Below are positions 1 to 10,047 of a stretch of 64,000 nt of DNA, in pieces; positions within the stretch are counted from its first letter, which is position 1; every line of letters begins with the position of its first letter. Under the pieces are notes generated by a model. The model was given only the letters and a program-made list of their open reading frames with translations. It did not search any database and was not told the origin of the DNA. A program made the position numbers and the translations under genes. Source of the DNA: Halapricum salinum (GTDB lineage: Archaea; Halobacteriota; Halobacteria; Halobacteriales; Haloarculaceae). The DNA is taken from assembly GCF_004799665.1 (NCBI RefSeq), contig NZ_CP031310.1, positions 488,887 to 552,886 of the forward strand, given 5' to 3'.

Positions 1-1560
1 CTGAATTCGGCCGCCAACGCCGCGATGCGGACCGCCGACCGCGAACACGGCGGCTTCGGCTCCTCTGGGCCGAAGTTCCCCCAGACCGGACGGCTGCACG
101 TCCTCCTCCGGGCGCACGAACGCACAGGTCGAGACGTCCTGCTGGACGTCGTCGAGGAGACGCTCGACGGGATGGCCGACGGCGGCATCTACGACCACCT
201 CGGGGGTGGGTTCCACCGCTATTCCACGGATCGGGAGTGGGTCGTGCCCCACTTCGAGAAGATGGGCTACGACAACGCCGAGATCCCGCGGGCGTATCTC
301 GCAGGGTATCAGGCCACCGGGAACGAGCGGTATGCGGAAGTGGTCGAAGAGACCTTCGCGTTCCTGCAACGGGAACTCCAACATCCCGAAGGCGGGTTCT
401 ACAGCACGCTCGACGCCCGGAGCGCACCGCCGGACGATCCATCCGCCGGGGACGAGGAAGGGGCGTTCTACACCTGGACGCCCGCGGAAGTTCGAGAAGC
501 GATCGACGACGAGACCACGGCGGAGCTGTTCTGTGATCGCTACGGCGTCACCGAGGCCGGGAACTTCGAGCGGACGACCGTGCTGACTCGCAGCGCGTCG
601 ATCGCGGAGCTGGCCGAGAGTTACGACCTTCCCGAGAGTGAGGTCGAAGAACGGCTCGAAGACGCTCGCGAGCAAGCCTTCGAGGCTCGGGAAGAGCGGC
701 CGCGCCCGAACCGAGACGAGAAGGTGCTGGCGAGCTGGAACGGCCTGCTCATCTCGGCACTCGCGGAGGGGGCGATCGTGCTGGAGGAGGACTATGTGGA
801 CGTGGCGGTCGCGGCGCTGGAGTTCTGTCGTGAGCAGTTGTGGGACGCCGAGGAGGAACGGCTCTCGCGGCGATTCAAGGATAGCGAGGTGAAGATCGAC
901 GGCTATCTCGAAGACTACGCCTTCCTCGCGCGTGGCGCGTTCGACACCTATCAGGCGAGTGGCGACGCGGCGCATCTCGGGTTCGCACTCGACCTGGCCG
1001 ACGCGCTGGTCGAGCGCTTCTGGGACCCACAGGAGGGAACGCTGTACTTCACCCAGACCGGCGGCGAGAGCCTGATCGCCCGCCCGCAGGAGCTGAACGA
1101 CCAGTCGACGCCCTCCAGTGCTGGCGTGGCCGCCGAGACGCTGCTCGCGCTGTCGCACTTCCGCCTCGATTCGGACTTCGAGGACGTGGCTTCGGGAGTG
1201 CTGTCGACTCACGCCGAGTCGATCGAGGGTAATCCCATTCAGCACGCCTCGCTAACGCTGGCAGCCGATCGCTACCGGAACGGATCGGTCGAGTTGACGG
1301 TGGCTGCGGATGACATGCCTGCCGAGTGGCGCGAGGTGCTGGCGAAGACGTACCTGCCGGCGCGGATTCTGGCCCGTCGGCCGGGAGACGATGGCGGGCT
1401 GGACGAGTGGCTGGTGGGGCTTGAGCTGGATGACGCACCGCCGATCTGGGCCGAGCGAGACGCGCGAGATAGCGAGCCAACCGTGTACGCCTGTCGGGAC
1501 TTCGCGTGTTCGCCGCCGCAGCACGATCTCGATGCAGCGATCGAGTGGCTTCGAGAGTGA
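1..1560 (+). CDS. DUF255/YyaL thioredoxin-domain protein, 3' part
   Basis: The reading frame is already open at base 1, so this is the C-terminal part (519 codons) of a family whose members are usually near 700 residues; the N-terminal thioredoxin-like domain lies outside the window. Visible family signatures are GGIYDHLGGGFHRYS (codons 61-75), PHFEKM (83-88), KVLASWNGLL, and a C-terminal YACRDFACSPP segment with two cysteines. The alpha/alpha-toroid body resembles N-acylglucosamine 2-epimerase folds. The catalytic role of the family is not established. One small oddity is MGYDNAE where homologs usually have MLYDNA. Confidence 0.9.
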   Translation: MNSAANAAMRTADREHGGFGSSGPKFPQTGRLHVLLRAHERTGRDVLLDVVEETLDGMADGGIYDHLGGGFHRYSTDREWVVPHFEKMGYDNAEIPRAYLAGYQATGNERYAEVVEETFAFLQRELQHPEGGFYSTLDARSAPPDDPSAGDEEGAFYTWTPAEVREAIDDETTAELFCDRYGVTEAGNFERTTVLTRSASIAELAESYDLPESEVEERLEDAREQAFEAREERPRPNRDEKVLASWNGLLISALAEGAIVLEEDYVDVAVAALEFCREQLWDAEEERLSRRFKDSEVKIDGYLEDYAFLARGAFDTYQASGDAAHLGFALDLADALVERFWDPQEGTLYFTQTGGESLIARPQELNDQSTPSSAGVAAETLLALSHFRLDSDFEDVASGVLSTHAESIEGNPIQHASLTLAADRYRNGSVELTVAADDMPAEWREVLAKTYLPARILARRPGDDGGLDEWLVGLELDDAPPIWAERDARDSEPTVYACRDFACSPPQHDLDAAIEWLRE

Positions 1561-1563
1561 GTG

Positions 1564-1579
1564 TCCTAACGAGTTAGGA
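1564..1579. promoter_or_regulatory. perfect 16-bp palindrome just upstream of a TATA-like box
   Basis: TCCTAAC-GA-GTTAGGA is a perfect inverted repeat (7-bp arms). It ends directly before an AT-rich box (about 1580-1588) that sits 27-35 bases before the ATG at 1615. This is the expected position for a dimeric regulator acting next to the TATA/BRE of a leaderless gene. It could also form a small hairpin after the preceding stop codon. Confidence 0.45.
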
Positions 1580-1614
1580 ACTATCGATAGGTCCGCACGC
1601 GAGAAGGTGTTGGT

Positions 1615-2007
1615 ATGTCGAGCACGACAGACATTCCGAATCCGAGCGAGTACGAGTGGTCATTCGAGAAGCGCGGCAGCGTCGGCATCTGGTTCATGGA
1701 GGGCTGGCAGGGTTTTGCCGACGAGGACCTGGAAGCCGCGAGCGATCACTACCGAGAGCGGGGCACGCGTAGCGACATCGAGGGGACGCTGGCAGTTTTC
1801 GGCGACAGTACGAATCTCGCTCGCGAGACCCAGGAGTACATGGGCGAAGCGTGGTCAGAGAACGGTGAGTACACTGGTGTCGACCGGATCGGATTCGTCT
1901 CGGAGGGGACGACCGCGATGGCCGTGAAGGCCGCTGTGGACGTCCCCGGAGCGGAAGTGGCGAGTTTCAGTGACGTGAACGACGCGCTCGAGTGGGCTCA
2001 GGAATAG
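1615..2007 (+). CDS. conserved small acidic protein, function unknown
   Basis: 130 residues, strongly acidic, no membrane segment or signal peptide. The alternating hydrophobic strands and short helices (SVGIWFMEGW; GTLAVFGDSTNL; GFVSEGTTAMAVKAAV; AEVASFSDVNDALEWAQE at the C-terminus) are reminiscent of STAS/SpoIIAA-like alpha-beta proteins, but I see no diagnostic motif. The ATG is preceded by a TATA-like box and the palindrome at 1564-1579, suggesting a leaderless regulated transcript. I infer a small cytosolic protein; no function can be assigned. Confidence 0.7.
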   Translation: MSSTTDIPNPSEYEWSFEKRGSVGIWFMEGWQGFADEDLEAASDHYRERGTRSDIEGTLAVFGDSTNLARETQEYMGEAWSENGEYTGVDRIGFVSEGTTAMAVKAAVDVPGAEVASFSDVNDALEWAQE

Positions 2008-2419
2008 CGTTCCCGGCAGTTTTTCGGTTGGCGATTCAGTATGCCGTCCGTGACTGTGCCACGATCCCTGTACACGGCCAGCGGCTTCCGACACGGACGG
2101 CTCTCTGACGGGAACGCAGACACGACCAACGCAGTGAAAGCCCCCGACGCGGACGGCTCGTGCGGCTCGCTGCGGTCCGTCGGTCCTTGCTTCGCCGGAC
2201 GTCGCCCTCCGCGTCGCCCCTTTCATTCCACCCGAAGCACAGCAACCGTGCCACACCCTCCCCAGCCGACTGCGCTGCTCGCTCACTTCGTTCGCTGTGC
2301 TGCTCATCCCTCGCACGGAGACAAGGCGCGCACGAGAGCGCGCCCGGCGCGCGCCAACCAGTCCTGTTCGGACAGCCGTCCACACGTCAGTGGCAGGTCT
2401 ACAGAATCGAGAGCCGATA
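2008..2419. other. 412-bp gap, no gene recognised
   Basis: Open frames exist on both strands but translate to arginine- and serine-rich text unlike the acidic proteins around them. The stretch contains GCTCGCTCACTTCGTTCGC-like GC-rich palindromic runs (about 2279-2300) of the kind seen in several gaps of this window. I see no RNA gene. Confidence 0.5.
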
Positions 2420-2821
2420 TCAATAGGTTTCTACGGACACGTCGTCGAGCAGCTCGAAGTCGTCGGTGTTCTCCGTCACGACCGTTGCGCCCGTCTCCTT
2501 GGCGACGGCTGCAATCAATATATCTCCAGCGAGGGAGTTTATCCTGTCCTGGTTGATGCTATCATCGCGGTGTAATGTCGCTTCTAACTGTCCGGCGATG
2601 ACTGCGTGGTCGGTCCGGAAGGGGACGACATCCAGCCACCCAAACGTCGACAGGATCTCGTGTCGGTCGAGTTTGTTCTGGAGGTCCCGCCCGACAGCAA
2701 TCTCCTTGGTGTTGAGCGTCGTCGTGATGAACTCGGACTCCTCGTTCCGTTCGAGGAACGCTCTCACGTTGTCTCGTCCGGCCCAGTAGCGGATGAGAAA
2801 GGTTGTGTCAAGCAGTTTCAT
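2420..2821 (-). CDS. vapC: VapC-type PIN-domain toxin
   Basis: 133 residues with a PIN-domain pattern: Asp5 in the opening KLLDTTFLI strand, Glu40 in NTKEIAVG, Asp100 in LAGDILIAAVA and an acidic ENTDDF cluster (118-122), the expected metal-binding carboxylates of this ribonuclease fold. VapC enzymes cleave tRNA or rRNA when released from VapB. Its start overlaps the end of the antitoxin gene by 14 bases, indicating co-translation. All key acidic residues seem present, so it is probably intact. The RNA target cannot be told from sequence. Confidence 0.9.
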   Translation of the reverse strand: MKLLDTTFLIRYWAGRDNVRAFLERNEESEFITTTLNTKEIAVGRDLQNKLDRHEILSTFGWLDVVPFRTDHAVIAGQLEATLHRDDSINQDRINSLAGDILIAAVAKETGATVVTENTDDFELLDDVSVETY

Positions 2822-3086
2822 CCATATCCTCGGTCTCGGAGAGTTCCTCGAGAACCTCTCGCTGGCGGTGCGCGAGGCCCGCGCTCGTCTGCCTGCGAGA
2901 CCTCTCGGCTGCCCGTTCCAGTTGCGCGGCCGCGTCTGCGTCGAGCGTCCCGAACCCCTCCCGCCAATCGGTTTGTGCCTCCGCGAGGAGACGATCTACG
3001 AGGTCTGTGAAACTTTCGCCCTCCCGCTTGCGGGCTTTCAGGCGTTCATAGACGTCCTCTCTGATGCCGATAGTTTTCGTCCCCAT
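2808..3086 (-). CDS. vapB: VapB-type antitoxin, ribbon-helix-helix like
   Basis: 92 residues. The N-terminal 36 (TKTIGIREDVYERLKARKREGESF then TDLVDRLLAE) fit a strand-helix-helix DNA-binding antitoxin, and the charged C-terminal half would wrap the toxin. It precedes vapC with overlapping ends. The ATG at 3086 lies two bases from a perfect palindrome (3088-3109), consistent with autoregulation of a leaderless transcript by the VapBC complex. Confidence 0.85.
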   Translation of the reverse strand: MGTKTIGIREDVYERLKARKREGESFTDLVDRLLAEAQTDWREGFGTLDADAAAQLERAAERSRRQTSAGLAHRQREVLEELSETEDMDETA

Positions 3087-3087
3087 A

Positions 3088-3109
3088 GTTTGTGTTTACA
3101 TACACAAAC
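3088..3109 (-). promoter_or_regulatory. vapBC operator palindrome
   Basis: GTTTGTGT-TTACAT-ACACAAAC is a perfect 8+6+8 inverted repeat. It fills the space between the vapB start (3086) and an AT-rich box on the minus strand (about 3112-3119). A bound complex here would cover the transcription start. This is the usual geometry for toxin-antitoxin autorepression; the binding protein is inferred. Confidence 0.7.
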
Positions 3110-3171
3110 ACAAAATAGTTACTCGGGAACACGGCGTGTCGACTGGCGTGCCCCGAGGAAATGCGAGTAGA

Positions 3172-3558
3172 TCAGTTCTCGTCGAAATATGCGCGAATCT
3201 CGTCGGCCAGATAGACGGCGATCGGCACCGGTTCCTCCTCGACGAAGCGGGCGACCTCCTCGCCGTCCTGCAGAACGACGACCGTCGGGATGTACTCGAT
3301 CCCGTACTTTTCGACTTTCGGGCCTTCCTTCGAGCCATCGTCGAGTTTCTCGACGGGGATCTCCTCGATTCGATCGTCGGAAATGCCTGCGGCGTCGAGT
3401 GCAGCGCCGAATTCGGGGAGTTGCTTGCGGCAGTCGCCACACCAGTCGCCGCCCCAGACGATGTACGTCAGATCGTCGAATTGGGCGAGCGTCTCGACAG
3501 TATCGCCGTAGGACTCGGCGTCGAAGACGGGATCGGGTCGCATCGTTTCGAGAGTCAT
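3172..3558 (-). CDS. thioredoxin-family protein with CGDC active site
   Basis: 128 residues with a thioredoxin-like fold: WGGDWCGDCRKQLPEF places a CxxC pair at Cys40 and Cys43, and IPTVVVLQDGEEVARF supplies the cis-Pro strand. CGDC instead of CGPC suggests a specialised thiol-disulfide exchanger. The ATG at 3558 was chosen; a second ATG at 3543 would remove five residues. The longer open frame upstream is the shadow of the next gene. No signal peptide, so it is cytosolic. Confidence 0.85.
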   Translation of the reverse strand: MTLETMRPDPVFDAESYGDTVETLAQFDDLTYIVWGGDWCGDCRKQLPEFGAALDAAGISDDRIEEIPVEKLDDGSKEGPKVEKYGIEYIPTVVVLQDGEEVARFVEEEPVPIAVYLADEIRAYFDEN

Positions 3559-3610
3559 GACTCCCCGTTCGAGAGCGGCGAATAAAACGGTCGCGGGTCG
3601 GAGTCGGGGA

Positions 3611-4810
3611 TTACTGCTCGAAGGCGCTGACGACTTCCTGGGTCGCGGCGTCGATGTCCCACTCGGCGACGAACGAGGACATCGCGGTCTTGAGTTCGAT
3701 GAGTTGGTCCGGCCGCACGCCCAGCCCGTGGGTGATCGACAGCGGCTGTGAGCGCGAGGACTGGAAGGCCTTGTGCTGGCCCTGGAGGAACGCATTGAAC
3801 TCCCCCATCGAGACGTCCGTCCGCGGCGGGATCGACCCCTTCTTCTGGTTGAATCGGCGCTGGCCGTCCGCCGAGCCGGCGTACTGCAGGAAGGTGCCGA
3901 CGGCGTCCTCGTTGTCGGTCATCGACGAGGCGATCACGGCGTCCATGTTCATCGCGTATTCGCCCTCGGTCCCGGGGAAGGGGACGTGTTCCCAGTCGCT
4001 ACCGTAGGTGAAGCCGTCGGTCTCGGTGTAGGCCCCGGCGGCCCAGTCGCCCTGGTGGAAGAACGTCGACTCGCCCTCGATGAAGCGTTCGTTGGCGTCG
4101 GTCAGCGACATGTACAGCGCGTCGTCGGTCGCGAGATCGGCGTAGGTCCCGACGATGTCCAGCGCGTCGGCGATCGCCTGCCGGTTGGCCGACGCTCGCC
4201 CGTCGCTCACGGCCTTGTAGACATCGTGGCCGTGCTCGCCCAGCAGCACTGTCTCCCACAGCTGCAGGACCGTCCAGGGGTTCTTCATCGGAAAGAGCAT
4301 GCCGACCTGCCCGGTCTCGGCTTCGGCCTGCCGGAGCATCTCCACGAACTCGCGAGGGCTCGACGCGCTGGAGGGATCGATCCCGGCCTCGACGGCCAGA
4401 TCGACGTTGTAGAAGAGGTTGTTGATCCGGTGGATGTTCAGCGGGACGGCGTGATAGACGCCGTCGAACTCCGAGGCCCCGCGCGGACCGTCGAGATACT
4501 GCTGCTCCATGTCCGACTGGTTCCAGACGTCGGAGATGTCCGCCAGGACGTTGGCCTCGACGTACGGAAAGAGGTTCTTGCCCGGCCACTCGACCCACAG
4601 GTCCGGCGGCGTCTCCTTGAGGATGCGACTCTTGACGGCCAGACTGAGGTTCTCGTTGGTGACGTCCCCCAGCGAGACGTCAGGATGGCGACTCTGAAAC
4701 CCCGACAACAGGGCCTCCATCGCCGCCTCACCATCGCCGCCCACCATCCGGTGAAGCAACTCCGTGTCGGTCCGGCCCCGGGAACTGAATTGCTCGCCAG
4801 AACGTGACAT
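3611..4810 (-). CDS. sugar-type solute-binding protein lacking a signal peptide
   Basis: 399 residues resembling ABC-transporter family 1 sugar-binding proteins: GGDGEAAMEALLSGFQSRHPDV near the start, NIHRINNLFYNVDL, FFHQGDWAAGAY, a PFPGTEGEYAMNMDAVI stretch and the long helical C-terminus. Normally these are exported lipoproteins with a Tat or Sec signal and lipobox Cys. Here the binding-protein fold begins by about residue 15 with no hydrophobic segment or Cys, and a TAG in frame at 4817-4819 excludes a longer N-terminus. No permease or ATPase genes are adjacent. The divergent neighbour is a chemotaxis transducer, so a signalling rather than transport role is likely. Confidence 0.85.
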   Translation of the reverse strand: MSRSGEQFSSRGRTDTELLHRMVGGDGEAAMEALLSGFQSRHPDVSLGDVTNENLSLAVKSRILKETPPDLWVEWPGKNLFPYVEANVLADISDVWNQSDMEQQYLDGPRGASEFDGVYHAVPLNIHRINNLFYNVDLAVEAGIDPSSASSPREFVEMLRQAEAETGQVGMLFPMKNPWTVLQLWETVLLGEHGHDVYKAVSDGRASANRQAIADALDIVGTYADLATDDALYMSLTDANERFIEGESTFFHQGDWAAGAYTETDGFTYGSDWEHVPFPGTEGEYAMNMDAVIASSMTDNEDAVGTFLQYAGSADGQRRFNQKKGSIPPRTDVSMGEFNAFLQGQHKAFQSSRSQPLSITHGLGVRPDQLIELKTAMSSFVAEWDIDAATQEVVSAFEQ

Positions 4811-4980
4811 GATCGTCTATACTGGCGTTTCTGCTACCCTGTATTGAACCTACCGCCGACGTTCTCACGTCTGGTAATACTTCCGGAGGCGTCCGCCGCT
4901 CTCCTCTCAGGTCGAGGAGATCCGACGAGAGAAGGCGATTTCGAGCGGGTCTGAGAACAAAATCTGATATTGGGTGGAAG

Positions 4981-4990
4981 GATATATATG
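4981..4990 (+). promoter_or_regulatory. TATA box of the transducer gene
   Basis: GATATATATG is centred about 28 bases before the ATG at 5013, the spacing of a leaderless haloarchaeal promoter. The 202-bp divergent region also serves the binding-protein gene at 4810, for which only a weak AT-rich box (about 4838-4845) is visible. Confidence 0.6.
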
Positions 4991-5012
4991 GTCGATTGGG
5001 TAACGTAGACAC

Positions 5013-6494
5013 ATGCGATTGTTCGCCGAACGAGCTACAACTGCGGCACTCGGATTCCAGCTGGTGCACGCGTTCTATCAGGCGCTTCTGCCGTCTCTCG
5101 TCTCCGGGCCGGCGTACGTGCTACTCGCGGCGAGCGGACTACTCGCAGCGGTCGGCACGCTCGGGTACGCCGTCTGGCGACTTGACGAGCGGTTCGCGAA
5201 CGTCCACGCCGAGCGGGAGGATCTCCGAGAGGAACGGGACGCACTCGAAGACGAGCGCGAGGCGCTCCGTGCGGAGCGGGACACGCTCGAAGTCCGTCTC
5301 GAAGCGGCACGGGATGCACTCACGGATCTGCAGGATCAACGCGTCCAGACTCCGGCGACGCCGATGACGACCGACGGTGGTGTCCAGACGGCCGGCAATC
5401 TCTCGACGGAGGAACTGGACGACTACATCGCCGTCTGCTGTGACACCATCGAGCAGACCGGCGACGGCGACCTCCGCCAGCGCCTCGACGTCGACACGCC
5501 TTCGGAAGCGCTCAATCGTCTCTCCCGGGAGTTCAACGAGATGGCGACGGCCTTCGAGCAAACGATCGACACGGCAAACGAGTTCAGCGAGGACGTCGCC
5601 GGCTCCTCAGAACAGGTCACGACCGCGACCCAGGCCGTGATGGAGGCTAGCGAGAGCGTCGCCGAGACGATTCAGGAGATCGCCGACGTCTTCCACGAGC
5701 AGCACACCCAGATCAGCCAGATCTCCGAGGAGATGGGCGACATGTCCGCGACGATTCAAGAGATCGCCGCCTCCAGCAACGAGGTCGCCGAGAAGGCAGA
5801 CAAGACCGAGCGCGAGACGGTCCAGGGGATCGAAGCCGCTCGCGGGGTCGCCGACGCGATGGACGAAGCCAGCGACCAGACCGACACCGTCGTCGAGGCC
5901 GTCGAGACGCTCGACGACCAGATGAAAGAGGTCGGACAGATCGTCGACATGATCGACCGGATCGCAGAACAGACGAACATCCTCGCGCTGAACGCCTCGA
6001 TCGAAGCCGCTCACGCCTCGACTGGCGAGGAGACCGGTTTCGGCGTCGTCGCAGACGAGGTCAAGAGCCTCGCCGAGGAGACCAAAGACGCAACCAAGCA
6101 GATCGAGGCGCTCATCGAGGACATCCAGGACCAGACGAGCGAGACCGTCGAGGAGATCAACGAGATGCAGTCGACTGTCGAAGACGGCCAGGAGGATGTC
6201 CAGGAAGGGCTAGAAGCGCTCGAATCGATCATGGACCACGTCCAGCAGACGACCAGCGGCGTCAAGGAGATCTCCAACGCGACCGACGATCAGGCCGCTT
6301 CCAGCGAGGAGGTCGCCTCGATCGCCGACGAGGCCGCAGAGACTTCCCGAGCGAACATGGAAGAGGCCGAGCACGTCGCCGCCGTCGCCGAAGAGCAGAC
6401 CCTCGCGCTCGGCGAGATGTACGTCAACGCGAAGATGCTCACGATGCGTGCCCGACAGCTCTCGACGCTGTTCGACCGCTACGAAACCGAGTGA
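5013..6494 (+). CDS. methyl-accepting chemotaxis transducer without ectodomain
   Basis: 493 residues. Two hydrophobic stretches near the N-terminus (about 8-30 and 32-54) with almost no loop between them, a charged coiled coil (60-108), a probable HAMP region (about 130-190), and a classic signalling hairpin with [18 protein letters not shown] at 316-333. Long flanking heptads carry Glu/Gln methylation sites. It should couple to CheW/CheA and flagellar control. There is no extracellular sensing domain, so input must come through the membrane segments or a cytoplasmic partner; the divergently encoded solute-binding protein without a signal peptide is the obvious candidate. Confidence 0.93.
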
Positions 6495-6557
6495 TTTCCC
6501 GCGAGTCGACGCCAGTAGAGGCCCACTTTTACTACCTGGTCGGTCCTGCACTCGACT

Positions 6558-7523
6558 ATGGACGTAGGCGTACTGACCGTTCCGCTCGGCGACCAGTCCC
6601 GTGAATCAGCGTTCGGATATCTTGCGGACCTCGGCGTCGGCGCGGTCGAGCTCGGCTGTGGTGGCTATCCCGGCCAGGGCCATCTCGACCGCGAGACACT
6701 GCTTACGGATCCGGACGCACGGGCCGACTTGCGTACGGATCTCGACGAGTACGATCTCCGCGTGAGCGCACTCGCGACGCACAACAACCCCTTGCACCCC
6801 GACGACGAGCGGGCCAGCGAGGCCGACACCGAACTCCGGGAAGCCATCGAACTAGCAGACGTGCTCGATATCGGCACTGTCACCTGCTTCTCGGGACTGC
6901 CGGCCGGCGGCCCGAACGACGAGGTGCCAAACTGGGTGACCGCACCCTGGCCCGGCGAGCACGCCGACGCCCACGAGTACCAGTGGGAGGTCGCCACCGA
7001 CTACTGGCGCGACCTGGCTGAACACGCCGCCGAACACGAGGTCGACGTCGCCATCGAGATGCACCCGAACATGCTGGTCTACGAGCCCTCGGGGATGCTC
7101 GAACTCCGCGACCGGACCAACGACCGGATCGGCGCGAACTTCGATCCCTCCCACCTGTACTGGCAGGGAATCGAGATTACCGACGCGATCCGGCTGCTGG
7201 GCGCACACGACGCCATCCACCACTTCCACGCCAAGGACACCAGAGTCTACGACGCCCAGGCCCGGACGAACGGTGTCCTCGACATGACGCCCTACGACGA
7301 GGTCGCGGATCGCTCGTGGATCTTCCGCTCGGTGGGCTACGGCCACGGCGAGGATCACTGGCGGGACATCGTCTCGACGCTGCGAATGGTCGGCTACGGC
7401 GGCGCGCTCTCGATTGAACACGAGGACGCGCTGACCTCGGCCAGTGAGGGGCTCGAAAAGGGAATCGAGCTGCTTCAGCGCGTGGTATTCGAGGAGCAGC
7501 CCGGGGACGCGTTCTGGGCGTAG
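6558..7523 (+). CDS. sugar phosphate isomerase/epimerase (xylose-isomerase-like TIM barrel)
   Basis: 321 residues with AP-endonuclease-2/xylose-isomerase barrel signatures: VGAVELGCGGYPG, VDVAIEMHPNMLVYEP (metal-ligand Glu), GANFDPSHLYWQG (Asp/His), IHHFHAKDTRVYD and GGALSIEHEDAL near the C-terminus (final metal-ligand Glu). These positions form the divalent-metal site used for ketose/aldose interconversion. It follows the transducer/binding-protein pair, so a link to sugar sensing is possible but not shown. Substrate unknown. Confidence 0.9.
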   Translation: MDVGVLTVPLGDQSRESAFGYLADLGVGAVELGCGGYPGQGHLDRETLLTDPDARADLRTDLDEYDLRVSALATHNNPLHPDDERASEADTELREAIELADVLDIGTVTCFSGLPAGGPNDEVPNWVTAPWPGEHADAHEYQWEVATDYWRDLAEHAAEHEVDVAIEMHPNMLVYEPSGMLELRDRTNDRIGANFDPSHLYWQGIEITDAIRLLGAHDAIHHFHAKDTRVYDAQARTNGVLDMTPYDEVADRSWIFRSVGYGHGEDHWRDIVSTLRMVGYGGALSIEHEDALTSASEGLEKGIELLQRVVFEEQPGDAFWA

Positions 7524-7566
7524 CAGCCGCTCTGGGTGTCACGCGATCGGAAAACTGGGTGTCCCG

Positions 7567-8067
7567 CTAGGCCGGGACCTGTCTGTCGAGAACGACCGCT
7601 GTCAGGACCGCAGTGACAGTTGCGCCGATCAGTGAAACGAGCACTCCCGCAATTTCGTCACCGATACTGAAGTCGATGGCGTCTGGCGCGGTGACCGTCA
7701 TGAGGAGTAGCGAGACGACGAGAACGACCGCCGTTCCAGCGGCGGCAGCGATCGCCGCGGGCTGGTAGGACGATATCTGGGCGTCCGTACTCGTGTGGTA
7801 GTACACACCGATACCGAAGGCGAACAGCAACCCGAATACGGGGCCGTCAGTGTACCCGAAGACAGCGTCCACTGCCCTGTAGAACATATCATCCTCGATA
7901 GCGCTGTATAGTCTCGAGTCCTCGGACGCGAGTGAATACTCCAGCAGATGATAGACGAACGATCCGATCGCGAATACCCCATACACTGCGATTCCGAATA
8001 GTGCATGACGAACGCCGTCTGATTGGCTTGACTGTTGTCGTGGCCGCCCACCCTGTTGTGAAGACAT
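7567..8067 (-). CDS. four-helix membrane protein, function unknown
   Basis: 166 residues: a polar Gln/Ser-rich N-terminus (1-20), then four hydrophobic segments at roughly 21-45, 65-88, 103-125 and 138-160, separated by an acidic loop (SLASEDSRLYSAIEDD). I recognise no family motif. The ATG at 8067 is preceded by an AT-rich box (TTTATATGTC on the minus strand, about 8090-8100) with leaderless spacing. It is encoded next to, and on the same strand as, another small membrane protein with a repeat tail. Confidence 0.75.
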   Translation of the reverse strand: MSSQQGGRPRQQSSQSDGVRHALFGIAVYGVFAIGSFVYHLLEYSLASEDSRLYSAIEDDMFYRAVDAVFGYTDGPVFGLLFAFGIGVYYHTSTDAQISSYQPAAIAAAAGTAVVLVVSLLLMTVTAPDAIDFSIGDEIAGVLVSLIGATVTAVLTAVVLDRQVPA

Positions 8068-8169
8068 ATCGACTTTTGATCCTCGACAGAGACATATAAA
8101 TCCTATTAGATAGGTTCCCCGATACAGGGGGCAGTTCGCTCAGTCAGCCTCCGCGAGACCTGATCGCCG

Positions 8170-9048
8170 CTACTTTTCGGTCTCGTCGTCCTTCTTGACC
8201 TTCTCCTCGACGGCCTCTTCGACTTTCTCCTCGACGGCCTCTTCGGCCTTCTCTGAGACTGTCTCCTCGGCTTTCTCTTCGACAGTCTTCTCGGCCTTCT
8301 CCTCGACGGCTTCTTCGGCTTTCTCTTCGATCGTCTCTTCTGCCTTTTCGGCGACCGTCTCCTCGGCTTTCTCTTCGACAGTCTTCTCGGCCTTCTCCGC
8401 AACGGCTTCTTCGGCTTTCTCTTCGACAGTCTCTTCGGCTTTTTCGGCGACGGCTTCTTCGGCTTTCTCCGTGACTGTCTCTTCTGCCTTCTCCTCGACG
8501 GCTTCTTCGGCTTTCTCCGTGACTGTCTCTTCTGCCTTCTCCTCGACGGCCTCCTGGGCCTTCTCTTCGACAGTCTTCTCGACCGTTTCAGCCACCGTCT
8601 TGTCGACCGTATCTTCGACCGTCTTCTCGACCGTCTCGGACACGGTCTTGTCGACCGTATCTTCGACAGTCTTGTCGACCGTATCTTCGACTGTCTTCTC
8701 GACGGTCTCTGCGACAGTCTTGTCGACCGTATCTTCGACCGTCTCGGCGACCGTCTTGTCTACTGTCTCACCGACAGTCTCTTCGACGGCTTCGCCGACC
8801 GTCTCGTCGACTTTCGCCTCGACGGTGTCGTCCATGGTCTCCTCGACGGTCTCTTTGACCGTCGACGTCATCCAGTCGGGGTCGAAGCGGGCCATCTTCC
8901 AGGCGACGTGGACGATGTAGGCGACGAGCACACCGAACCCGAAGGCCAGCCCGATGTCGTTGCCGGCCAGCAAGATCAGTCCGACCGACAGCGCGATGAG
9001 GAGTCCGTATGTCAGATCGACCAGCGAGTCGACGCGACTCGGATTCAT
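8170..9048 (-). CDS. membrane-anchored protein with 56 perfect tetrad repeats
   Basis: 292 residues from the ATG at 9048; a TTG at 9078 in the same frame would add ten. Residues 13-29 and 33-52 are membrane segments. From residue 61 to 284 the sequence is an unbroken run of 56 four-residue units, each ending in Val, Ala, Ile or Met: about 25 units of the xxTV kind, then 31 alternating EEKA/EExV units, ending in KKDDETEK. The domain is extremely rich in Glu and Lys. A long charged helix or coiled coil is likely. Function unknown. The codons vary more than the residues, so the pattern appears maintained. Confidence 0.8.
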   Translation of the reverse strand: MNPSRVDSLVDLTYGLLIALSVGLILLAGNDIGLAFGFGVLVAYIVHVAWKMARFDPDWMTSTVKETVEETMDDTVEAKVDETVGEAVEETVGETVDKTVAETVEDTVDKTVAETVEKTVEDTVDKTVEDTVDKTVSETVEKTVEDTVDKTVAETVEKTVEEKAQEAVEEKAEETVTEKAEEAVEEKAEETVTEKAEEAVAEKAEETVEEKAEEAVAEKAEKTVEEKAEETVAEKAEETIEEKAEEAVEEKAEKTVEEKAEETVSEKAEEAVEEKVEEAVEEKVKKDDETEK

Positions 9049-9130
9049 CCGTCGATCACCGTCTGCCAAATTGCGCAACCTGTCGCTCCTGCCGCTCGCG
9101 TAGAAGTCATATCACAAGCCAATAGCCCCG

Positions 9131-9149
9131 TCGGCAAGTAGCTTGCCGA
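9131..9149. terminator. 8-bp hairpin between two minus-strand genes
   Basis: TCGGCAAG-TAG-CTTGCCGA is a perfect inverted repeat. It lies 26 bases after the stop of the isocitrate-lyase-family gene and before the tetrad-repeat gene on the same strand. It may end the first transcript or act in the leader of the second. No clear T-run follows. Confidence 0.4.
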
Positions 9150-9174
9150 ACGCGATCACCAGCCGGATTCCGGG

Positions 9175-10047
9175 CTACTCCTCTGCGTACTCCCGCTGGC
9201 GCTCGCGGTAGGACTCGGTCCCGAGGACGTCCTCGAACTGCGCGAAAGTGACTGTCTCGACTGCGTCGGTCGTCCCGTGCGTCGCCAGTGCTTCGTAAGC
9301 CTCCCTGACCGCCCGAGTCATCGCGAACAGCGCGGTCAGCGGATAGACCACGATGTCGAACCCGAGATCGTCCAGTTCGTCGGCCGATAGCACCGGCGTC
9401 TTGCCGCCTTCGATCATGTTCGCGAACGTCGGCGCGTCGAAGGCAGTGGCGATCCGTTCGAGTTCCTCGCGAGACTGTGGGGCCTCGACGAAGACGACAT
9501 CAGCACCCGCGCGCTCGTAGGCTCGGCCGCGTTCGATCGCCTCGTCCAGCCCGTGCGGTTCGCGGGCGTCGGTGCGCCCGATCAACAGGAAGTCGCTGTC
9601 GCGCTCCTCGCGGACGTCCGCTGCCGCACGGATGCGCCGGACGTGTTCGTCGGTCGGAACGACTCGCTTCTCGTCCATGTGGCCACAGCGCTTTGGCCAC
9701 TGCTGGTCTTCGAGGATCGCGCCCGCGACGCCCGCGTCGATGCACTCGCCGATCGTCCGCCGGACGTTCAGCGCGTTGCCGTAGCCGGTGTCCATGTCGG
9801 CCACCAGCGGGATGGAGATGGATTCGGTGATCCGACGGATACGATCGACGTTCTCCGAGGCGGTCATCAGTCCCAGGTCGGGCAGCCCCAGCTGGGTCGC
9901 GGCGATCGAGAACCCGGAGGTGAACACGGTCTCGAAGCCGGCCTGTTCGGCCAGTTTCGCCGACATGGTGTCGTACGCGCCGGGGAAGACGGTGATCTCG
10001 GGCTGGTCGAGGAGTCGCCGGAGTTCGGTCGCAGGCTCGTCGGCCAT
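9175..10047 (-). CDS. isocitrate lyase/PEP mutase family enzyme
   Basis: 290 residues of the ICL/PEPM TIM barrel. Visible: YDTMSAKLAEQAGF, SGFSIAATQLGLPD, the metal-site strand PLVADMDTGYGN, the active-site loop QQWPKRCGHMDEK with the lyase-type Cys, LLIGRTDAR and FVEAP. The Cys-containing KRCGH loop favours a C-C lyase such as 2-methylisocitrate lyase over a PEP mutase. No propionate-cycle genes are adjacent, so the substrate stays open. An AT-rich box (about 10071-10079) gives leaderless spacing to the ATG at 10047; direct repeats at 10086-10148 lie just upstream. Confidence 0.88.
   Translation of the reverse strand: MADEPATELRRLLDQPEITVFPGAYDTMSAKLAEQAGFETVFTSGFSIAATQLGLPDLGLMTASENVDRIRRITESISIPLVADMDTGYGNALNVRRTIGECIDAGVAGAILEDQQWPKRCGHMDEKRVVPTDEHVRRIRAAADVREERDSDFLLIGRTDAREPHGLDEAIERGRAYERAGADVVFVEAPQSREELERIATAFDAPTFANMIEGGKTPVLSADELDDLGFDIVVYPLTALFAMTRAVREAYEALATHGTTDAVETVTFAQFEDVLGTESYRERQREYAEE

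Follow-up and report, generated by a model that had tools for sequence, protein, structure and literature searches.

In Halobacterium salinarum, the genes for the binding protein BasB and its transducer BasT are adjacent, and the transducers of BasB and CosB have outer domains. BasB, CosB, and two further proteins that were copurified with halobacterial transducers (Htrs) are given as putative periplasmic binding proteins in the sections of PMC3579733 cited here. Solute-binding proteins (SBPs) are regarded as extracytosolic; SBP profiles also pick up some single-domain proteins of the cytosol, and a cytosolic location was predicted for about 1% of the proteins retrieved automatically (PMC9602780, cited in part). 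The locus described here lies in a 64,000-nucleotide stretch of Halapricum salinum DNA (hereafter, the window; positions 488887 to 552886 of a 3.45-Mb single-contig genome). It combines an SBP of the glucose-binding-protein type that lacks an export signal with a divergently encoded hairpin transducer that lacks an outer domain. Among the genomes of the family Haloarculaceae, such signal-less SBPs form a single clade and are found in exactly those genomes that encode this transducer. Probably, these cytosolic SBPs inform the hairpin transducer of the sugars or sugar acids present inside the cell, which steers by this internal supply.

The binding protein and the stop codon that delimits it are as follows.
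3611 to 4810, minus strand: signal-less SBP of the glucose-binding-protein type, 399 residues, matching SBP_bac_8 at 4.3e-21.
4817 to 4819, minus strand: in-frame TAG, read directly, which rules out a longer start of the SBP.

An earlier note on this DNA had claimed that the SBP lacks a signal peptide and lipobox and that the TAG blocks a longer start; both statements hold, and the TAG is located two codons 5' of the ATG. The first 60 residues include no hydrophobic segment (the highest 19-residue Kyte-Doolittle mean is 0.44), and reading of the N-terminal sequence revealed neither a twin-arginine (RR) motif nor a lipobox. In the AlphaFold2 model (mean predicted local distance difference test score, pLDDT, of 92), only residues 1 to 13 are disordered and the SBP fold begins at about residue 14, which leaves no room for a signal; the chain starts at the point where the mature part of the secreted relatives begins. 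The protein has both the two-lobed SBP fold and the SBP_bac_8/SBP_bac_1 sequence profile. Its closest solved structure by sequence (phmmer against PDB) is the Thermus glucose/galactose-binding protein 2b3b (5.5e-35), with which the model aligns over 379 residues (VIA-align Z score of 48.9; root mean square deviation, 2.0), and the nearest bacterial structures in a Foldseek comparison with PDB as the target are periplasmic proteins. Purifying selection acts on the SBP within the genus, whose members include Halapricum hydrolyticum (L155) and Halapricum sp. CBA1109 (L159): the ratio of nonsynonymous to synonymous substitution rates is 0.11 to 0.27 in six pairs. (Handles beginning with L and G denote loci and genomes, respectively.) No ABC permease or ATPase gene adjoins the SBP among the open reading frames read over window positions 1 to 9500. 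The nearest paralogue in the same genome (L060; 42%) carries a twin-arginine translocation (Tat) motif and a lipobox and has ABC permease and ATPase genes alongside.

The transducer consists of the following parts.
5013 to 6494, plus strand: hairpin transducer, a methyl-accepting chemotaxis protein (MCP) of 493 residues; MCPsignal (PF00015) match at 1.3e-40, above the cut-off; 21 relatives aligned; modelled.
5031 to 5099, plus strand: first transmembrane segment (TM1), residues 7 to 29, from the model, hydropathy, and alignment.
5100 to 5108, plus strand: outer loop of about 3 residues (30 to 32), from the model.
5109 to 5177, plus strand: second transmembrane segment (TM2), approximately residues 33 to 55, from the model and hydropathy.
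5178 to 5348, plus strand: coiled stalk that prolongs TM2 from the membrane to HAMP, residues 56 to 112, from the model.
5349 to 5405, plus strand: low-confidence linker, residues 113 to 131 (pLDDT below 50 at residues 112 to 129), with a DGG motif at residues 121 to 123 (5373 to 5381).
5406 to 5594, plus strand: HAMP-like region, residues 132 to 194, with a subthreshold Pfam HAMP match (0.0072) and two model helices.
5607 to 6488, plus strand: MCP signalling domain, residues 199 to 492, from the Pfam match and the model.

As had been proposed, the two membrane segments are separated by almost no loop. The model helices cover residues 7 to 29 and 33 to 112, and hydrophobic 19-residue segments begin at residues 12 and 36 (means of 1.27 and 1.93, with all others below 0.6); hence, the protein is not free of transmembrane segments. 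Helix limits alone were taken from this AlphaFold2 model (pLDDT of 74.6 and predicted template modelling score of 0.37). Across the 21 aligned relatives (55 to 70% to the window copy), Q16, H19, and Q23 of TM1 are invariant or at least 90% conserved, the stalk varies in length by 7 residues, and the DGG motif is invariant (21/21). Among the nine MCP frames of the host genome that were read, DGG is found only in the window transducer and at the far C-terminal end of L036. The DGG linker might be a docking motif, and our guess is that a cytosolic partner could bind to the region from TM2 to HAMP, at the stalk and linker. The window transducer is one of 10 genes in the host genome that score over the PF00015 cut-off; the genome also encodes one CheA and archaellins. 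In a single draft genome, G004, the neighbouring transducer is otherwise intact but has H19 and Q23 of TM1 changed, and its SBP (L046) is frameshifted. This combination is suggestive of joint decay, or else of a draft-assembly error.

The N-terminal part of the transducer (residues 1 to 196) was searched against 392 genomes of the order. At 1e-8, it matches in 39 genomes; the 27 matches at 2.6e-14 or better all come from Haloarculaceae, and the best match outside this family has an E value of 1.4e-9. Within Haloarculaceae, 34 of 146 genomes encode it at 1e-12, always as one transducer per genome. SBP relatives, defined for this census by E values of 1e-40 or lower, are found in 78 of the 146 genomes at 137 loci, all of which were read. 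The 42 signal-less loci reside in exactly the 34 transducer genomes; among the other 112, 44 contain only signal-bearing SBPs and 68 have no SBP relative. Fisher's test gives 5e-34 for the 146 genomes and 7e-23 for the 78, values to be read with the reservation that genomes are not independent. Two of the 42 loci, L259 (in G421) and L050 (in G011), carried rule-based signal labels from a far-upstream RR that were overruled by hand because both proteins lack a lipobox, have an ATG just before the fold, and fall inside the signal-less clade. If these labels were kept, G421 would be the sole exception to the co-occurrence; G011 would still have L144.

The SBP and transducer genes are adjacent in 14 of the 34 genomes, always in divergent orientation: in 5 from Halapricum, 8 from the Haloarcula-Halomicroarcula group, and G010, together three genera. 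The missing signal and the missing outer domain recur in all 14 linked pairs, one of which (that of G004) has a frameshifted SBP. In the remaining 20 genomes, the two genes lie apart, and their joint presence there needs more than linkage to explain it. The trait extends beyond the window locus to a clade with 42 loci distributed over 34 genomes, in most of which (20) the genes are not neighbours. More than one signal-less SBP is encoded in seven genomes, a many-to-one pattern. Relatives with a signal peptide at the same locus, or a pair that is not conserved, were what the earlier note had named as counter-evidence; none of the same-locus relatives has such a peptide, and the pair is conserved, its co-occurrence being without exception.

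The same distribution could mainly reflect shared ancestry, if the common ancestor of several genera already had both genes and these were then kept or lost together by chance. On an elongation factor 2 (EF-2) tree, for which 30 of the 146 genomes were hand-chosen to provide within-genus contrasts (28 were matched; G011 and G030 were not), only about 5 changes in joint presence occur, and the 4 supported independent contrasts yield a p value of 0.125. All four are nevertheless concordant, and, as the genes lie apart in the contrasts from Halosimplex and Halomicrobium, no single deletion could remove both there. Purifying selection on the SBP and duplication of the SBP branch also argue for use. 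As the main cause of the co-occurrence, common descent with chance retention appears improbable.

Signal-less SBPs probably have a single origin. In a tree of 158 mature sequences, 41 signal-less rows are on one side of a branch with a Shimodaira-Hasegawa-like approximate likelihood ratio support of 100 and 117 Tat-signal-bearing rows are on the other; the signal state changes once on this tree, compared with a shuffled mean of 35. The 41 rows comprise 39 labelled ones and two unlabelled copies from G403 (L279 and L280) that are signal-less on reading. The tree excludes L046 (frameshift), L128 (in-frame stop), and L022, L023, L031, and L314 (on short contigs, incomplete, or with a stop). With three bacterial outgroups added to 33 of the 41 signal-less rows and a random 40 of the 117 signal-bearing ones, the signal-less rows still form one clade (support of 100) and the outgroup falls among the secreted rows, as expected had the export signal been lost once; owing to the long outgroup branch, this direction is likely rather than certain. 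Several paralogues belong to the signal-less clade, and some genomes encode two of them for one transducer. Of the 392 sampled genomes of the order, 249 match the SBP at 1e-60 or better. Outside Haloarculaceae, a signal is present in 76 of the 77 distinct loci read (family loci having been removed with a hand-made list), the remaining one being cut by a contig end. Absence of the signal-less form outside the family is therefore a sampled result, not an exhaustive one.

Two other accounts of the missing signal were rejected. Local truncation of an exported gene does not fit, as the same-locus relatives and the entire clade are signal-less. In L044, L048, and L132, the upstream frame is open and includes short hydrophobic runs, which might have hidden a signal behind a longer start; by eye, these regions look like promoter-like AT-rich DNA. 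The open frames were not taken for signals because none combines an RR with a lipobox and the runs are not conserved.

The fold of the window SBP is that of exported SBPs, and its nearest bacterial structures are periplasmic, as would be expected if it left the cell by an unrecognised route and acted outside like BasB, in contact with either the very short outer loop or another partner on the outside. However, with a modelled loop of about 3 residues, there is no outer domain to meet, and the secreted sister proteins all carry a Tat signal, with or without a lipobox. The signal-less state belongs to one old clade whose members have lost residues conserved in secreted SBPs. Export is accordingly a very unlikely explanation.

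The residues that form the predicted sugar pocket of the window SBP were identified by alignment with GltB of Pseudomonas putida.
4745 to 4750, minus strand: R21-M22, at the position of the stacking Trp residues (W35/W36 of GltB; Trp in secreted relatives).
4043 to 4045, minus strand: W256, equivalent to GltB W270.
3941 to 3943, minus strand: D290, equivalent to GltB D303.
3839 to 3841, minus strand: K324, equivalent to GltB K339.
3728 to 3730, minus strand: H361, equivalent to GltB H379.

Twelve glucose contacts of P. putida GltB are listed in the cited part of PMC7927077; they were transferred to the window SBP by profile alignment and counted over the 41 signal-less and 117 signal-bearing rows. 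The window SBP retains the equivalents of W270, N301, D303, K339, and H379 and has R21-M22 in place of W35-W36 and L236 in place of W250. Trp at the W36 position is found in 6/41 signal-less rows versus 109/117 signal-bearing ones. The corresponding counts are 41/41 versus 116/117 for Trp at the W270 position, 34/41 versus 116/117 for Asp at D303, 31/41 versus 117/117 for Lys at K339, and 35/41 versus 116/117 for His at H379. The signal-less clade has retained the pocket core, and the stacking Trp is mostly gone. Because the core stays while this Trp is lost, ligand binding by signal-less SBPs is presumably weaker or different, which would fit millimolar internal pools. R21 is shared by 13 of the 41 signal-less rows (those of Halapricum, Haloarcula, and L047), suggesting an acidic ligand for the sub-branch of the window.

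Two more features of the window belong to the pair or adjoin it.
4811 to 5012, no strand assigned: divergent intergenic region shared by the SBP and transducer genes, with a TATA-like run at about 4983 to 4989, 5' of the transducer start (by eye).
6558 to 7523, plus strand: xylose-isomerase-like TIM-barrel protein adjoining the transducer, matching AP_endonuc_2 at 8.3e-34.

The TIM-barrel protein is encoded 3' of the transducer in Halapricum, most Haloarcula loci, Halomicrobium, and G011. It is often accompanied by a Gfo/Idh oxidoreductase (L140:8717-9832, L043 to L046, and L115) that is nearest to levoglucosan dehydrogenase, with scores below the cut-off; these two neighbours might possibly be part of a 3-keto-sugar pathway. 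In all 8 pairs of the Haloarcula group (L115 to L119 and L234 to L236), the SBP adjoins a dehydratase of the enolase superfamily that is nearest to the galactonate and gluconate/galactonate dehydratases, again below the NCBIfam cut-offs. In four loci of the Halomicrobium group (L140, L142, L143, and L146), the same dehydratase adjoins the transducer, not the SBP. Judging from R21 and the neighbouring Haloarcula dehydratase, a sugar acid such as gluconate would be the candidate ligand for the window sub-branch.

Other signal-less SBPs have different neighbours. L120 is found next to galT, a galE-like gene, galK, and a gene for a glycoside hydrolase (GH) of family 42; L122, next to genes for a mutarotase-family protein and GH2; L048, next to phosphoglucose isomerase (pgi); L053, next to transketolase, fructose-6-phosphate-aldolase/transaldolase, and GH4 (as are, by eye, L054 and L124); and L132, next to a relative of BadF-type sugar kinases. 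L273 and L279 adjoin genes for an L-rhamnonate-type dehydratase and a hydrolase of the 2,4-didehydro-3-deoxy-L-rhamnonate type. L279 (G403:C2:33268-40422) and L280 are two identical copies of a second signal-less SBP in an L-rhamnonate-type catabolic cluster; some 240 kb separate them on a contig of 284 kb. In G305 and G360 of the Haloarcula group, the contig with the signal-less pair also encodes, approximately 22 to 24 kb away, a signal-bearing SBP (L153 and L154) with ABC transporter genes; the uptake system and the internal sensor may belong to one island. The transducers of Halorhabdus (L135 to L138, L145, and L147) adjoin, by eye, 2-oxoacid-ferredoxin-oxidoreductase-like and CheC-like genes, not sugar genes. 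Elsewhere in the window, positions 2420 to 3086 (minus strand) encode a toxin-antitoxin pair of a PIN-domain protein and a VAPB_antitox-family protein, and positions 8170 to 9078 (minus strand) encode a membrane-anchored protein whose long tail is nearly repetitive (ETVEKTVEDTVDKTV, followed by EKAEEAVEEKAEET).

These neighbours also allow a reading in which both genes are co-inherited within a sugar-acid catabolic regulon and do not make contact, the SBP being a cytosolic sugar sensor or buffer that serves metabolism or regulation and the hairpin sensing some other cue, such as membrane potential, in the manner of MpcT. Catabolic enzymes and regulators (an IclR regulator at L279 and, by eye, a TrmB-like one at L132) adjoin several SBPs; MpcT, which Table 2 of PMC3579733 (cited in part) lists for membrane potential, has 2 predicted transmembrane segments; and the conserved polar residues Q16, H19, and Q23 inside TM1 look as if the hairpin itself were functional. 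On the other hand, the co-occurrence holds without a common cluster in 20/34 genomes, among them those of Halosimplex and G011, in which reading of the SBP surroundings revealed no sugar genes, and a shared regulon leaves unexplained why the SBP clade is absent wherever the transducer is. We regard this reading as unlikely, although it is the most serious of the alternatives.

The preferred reading, internal sugar sensing through the transducer, can be drawn as a series of steps. The Tat or lipoprotein export signal of a haloarchaeal branch of glucose-type SBPs would have been lost once, in the ancestry of Haloarculaceae, and the signal-less branch would have become a family of cytosolic receptors for sugars or sugar acids already taken into the cell. 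In its loaded or empty state, the SBP would act from inside on the hairpin transducer, with its stalk and DGG linker before the HAMP region, and the MCP domain of the transducer would relay the signal to CheA. The cell would then steer by its internal supply of carbon sources rather than by their outside concentration, and several SBPs with different ligands could feed one type of transducer. The semi-phosphorylative Entner-Doudoroff pathway leaves free glucose and gluconate inside the cell. As it is the route of glucose breakdown in sugar-using haloarchaea (PMC10817205, cited in part), free internal sugars and aldonates would be available to a cytosolic SBP. The suggestion of internal sensing made in the earlier note is supported by these results, and the neighbouring enzymes for sugars and sugar acids fit it; direct contact between SBP and transducer, its site, the identity of the ligand, the direction of the response, and the taxis output are what we infer. 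More tentatively, the cytosolic SBPs might constitute an exchangeable set of internal sensors, each tuned to a different internal sugar or sugar acid and encoded next to the matching catabolic enzymes. All of them would bind the one hairpin transducer on its inner side, at the stalk or the DGG linker, and so let the cell follow its own metabolite pools; signal loss would be the founding step.

Several observations weigh against internal sugar sensing by the pair. With about 5 changes, 4 contrasts, and a p value of 0.125, shared ancestry explains much of the 34/34 co-occurrence. The loss of the stacking Trp makes sugar binding itself uncertain. Locus reading revealed no evident sugar genes by the SBPs of L052/L125/L126, L121/L123, L127 to L129, L133, and Halosimplex. 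A frameshift breaks the SBP of G004, and that of G277 is interrupted by one in-frame TAG; both genomes have a transducer that reads through. Finally, G002, G418 (about 99% complete, 10% contaminated), G371, and G244 lack both genes and yet retain CheA, so that loss of the pair is not simply loss of taxis. G325 (89% complete) and G422, by contrast, count in favour of internal sensing: they also lack both genes, and CheA was not detected in them either.

If internal sensing is confirmed, a transport protein would clearly have become an internal receptor, with a whole clade moved inside together with most of its pocket and tracking one type of receptor. It would also offer a molecular handle on metabolism-dependent taxis, for which the signal inside the cell has often not been identified; candidates for individual ligands can be taken from the neighbour genes: galactose and gluconate-type or rhamnonate-type acids. 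MpcT is not known to have a large outer domain and has only a minimal loop. Like the window transducer, MpcT (Htr14) of H. salinarum has 2 predicted transmembrane segments, but in the cited part of PMC3579733 it is listed for membrane potential, with no binding protein. The same source describes Car (Htr11), a cytoplasmic arginine transducer of H. salinarum that likewise senses an internal nutrient; Car has 0 predicted transmembrane segments and is itself the receptor, whereas a separate SBP is proposed here and the transducer is membrane bound. The BasB-BasT and CosB-CosT systems of H. salinarum share with this locus the pairing of an SBP with a methyl-accepting transducer that signals to CheA. 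They differ in that those SBPs are putatively periplasmic (PMC3579733, in its cited sections), as the earlier note had assumed in taking them for exported proteins, whereas the window SBP lacks an export signal and its transducer lacks an outer domain. The glucose-binding proteins of Thermus thermophilus (2b3b) and P. putida (5dvf/5dvj) have the same fold (Z scores of 48.9 and 47.3) and most of the pocket residues, but they are exported transport proteins with two stacking Trp residues, in contrast to the R21-M22 of the cytosolic window SBP. In GltB-GtrS of Pseudomonas aeruginosa, a glucose-type SBP activates a sensor by contact and the sugar pocket is needed, according to the cited part of PMC7927077; that system is periplasmic and acts on a histidine kinase. 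No paper on a signal-less SBP that feeds a chemoreceptor was found by title in the Creative Commons-licensed PMC literature. Cytosolic SBP-like proteins as such are already known, and we rate the clade tied to a chemoreceptor as a new form of binding-protein-mediated taxis.

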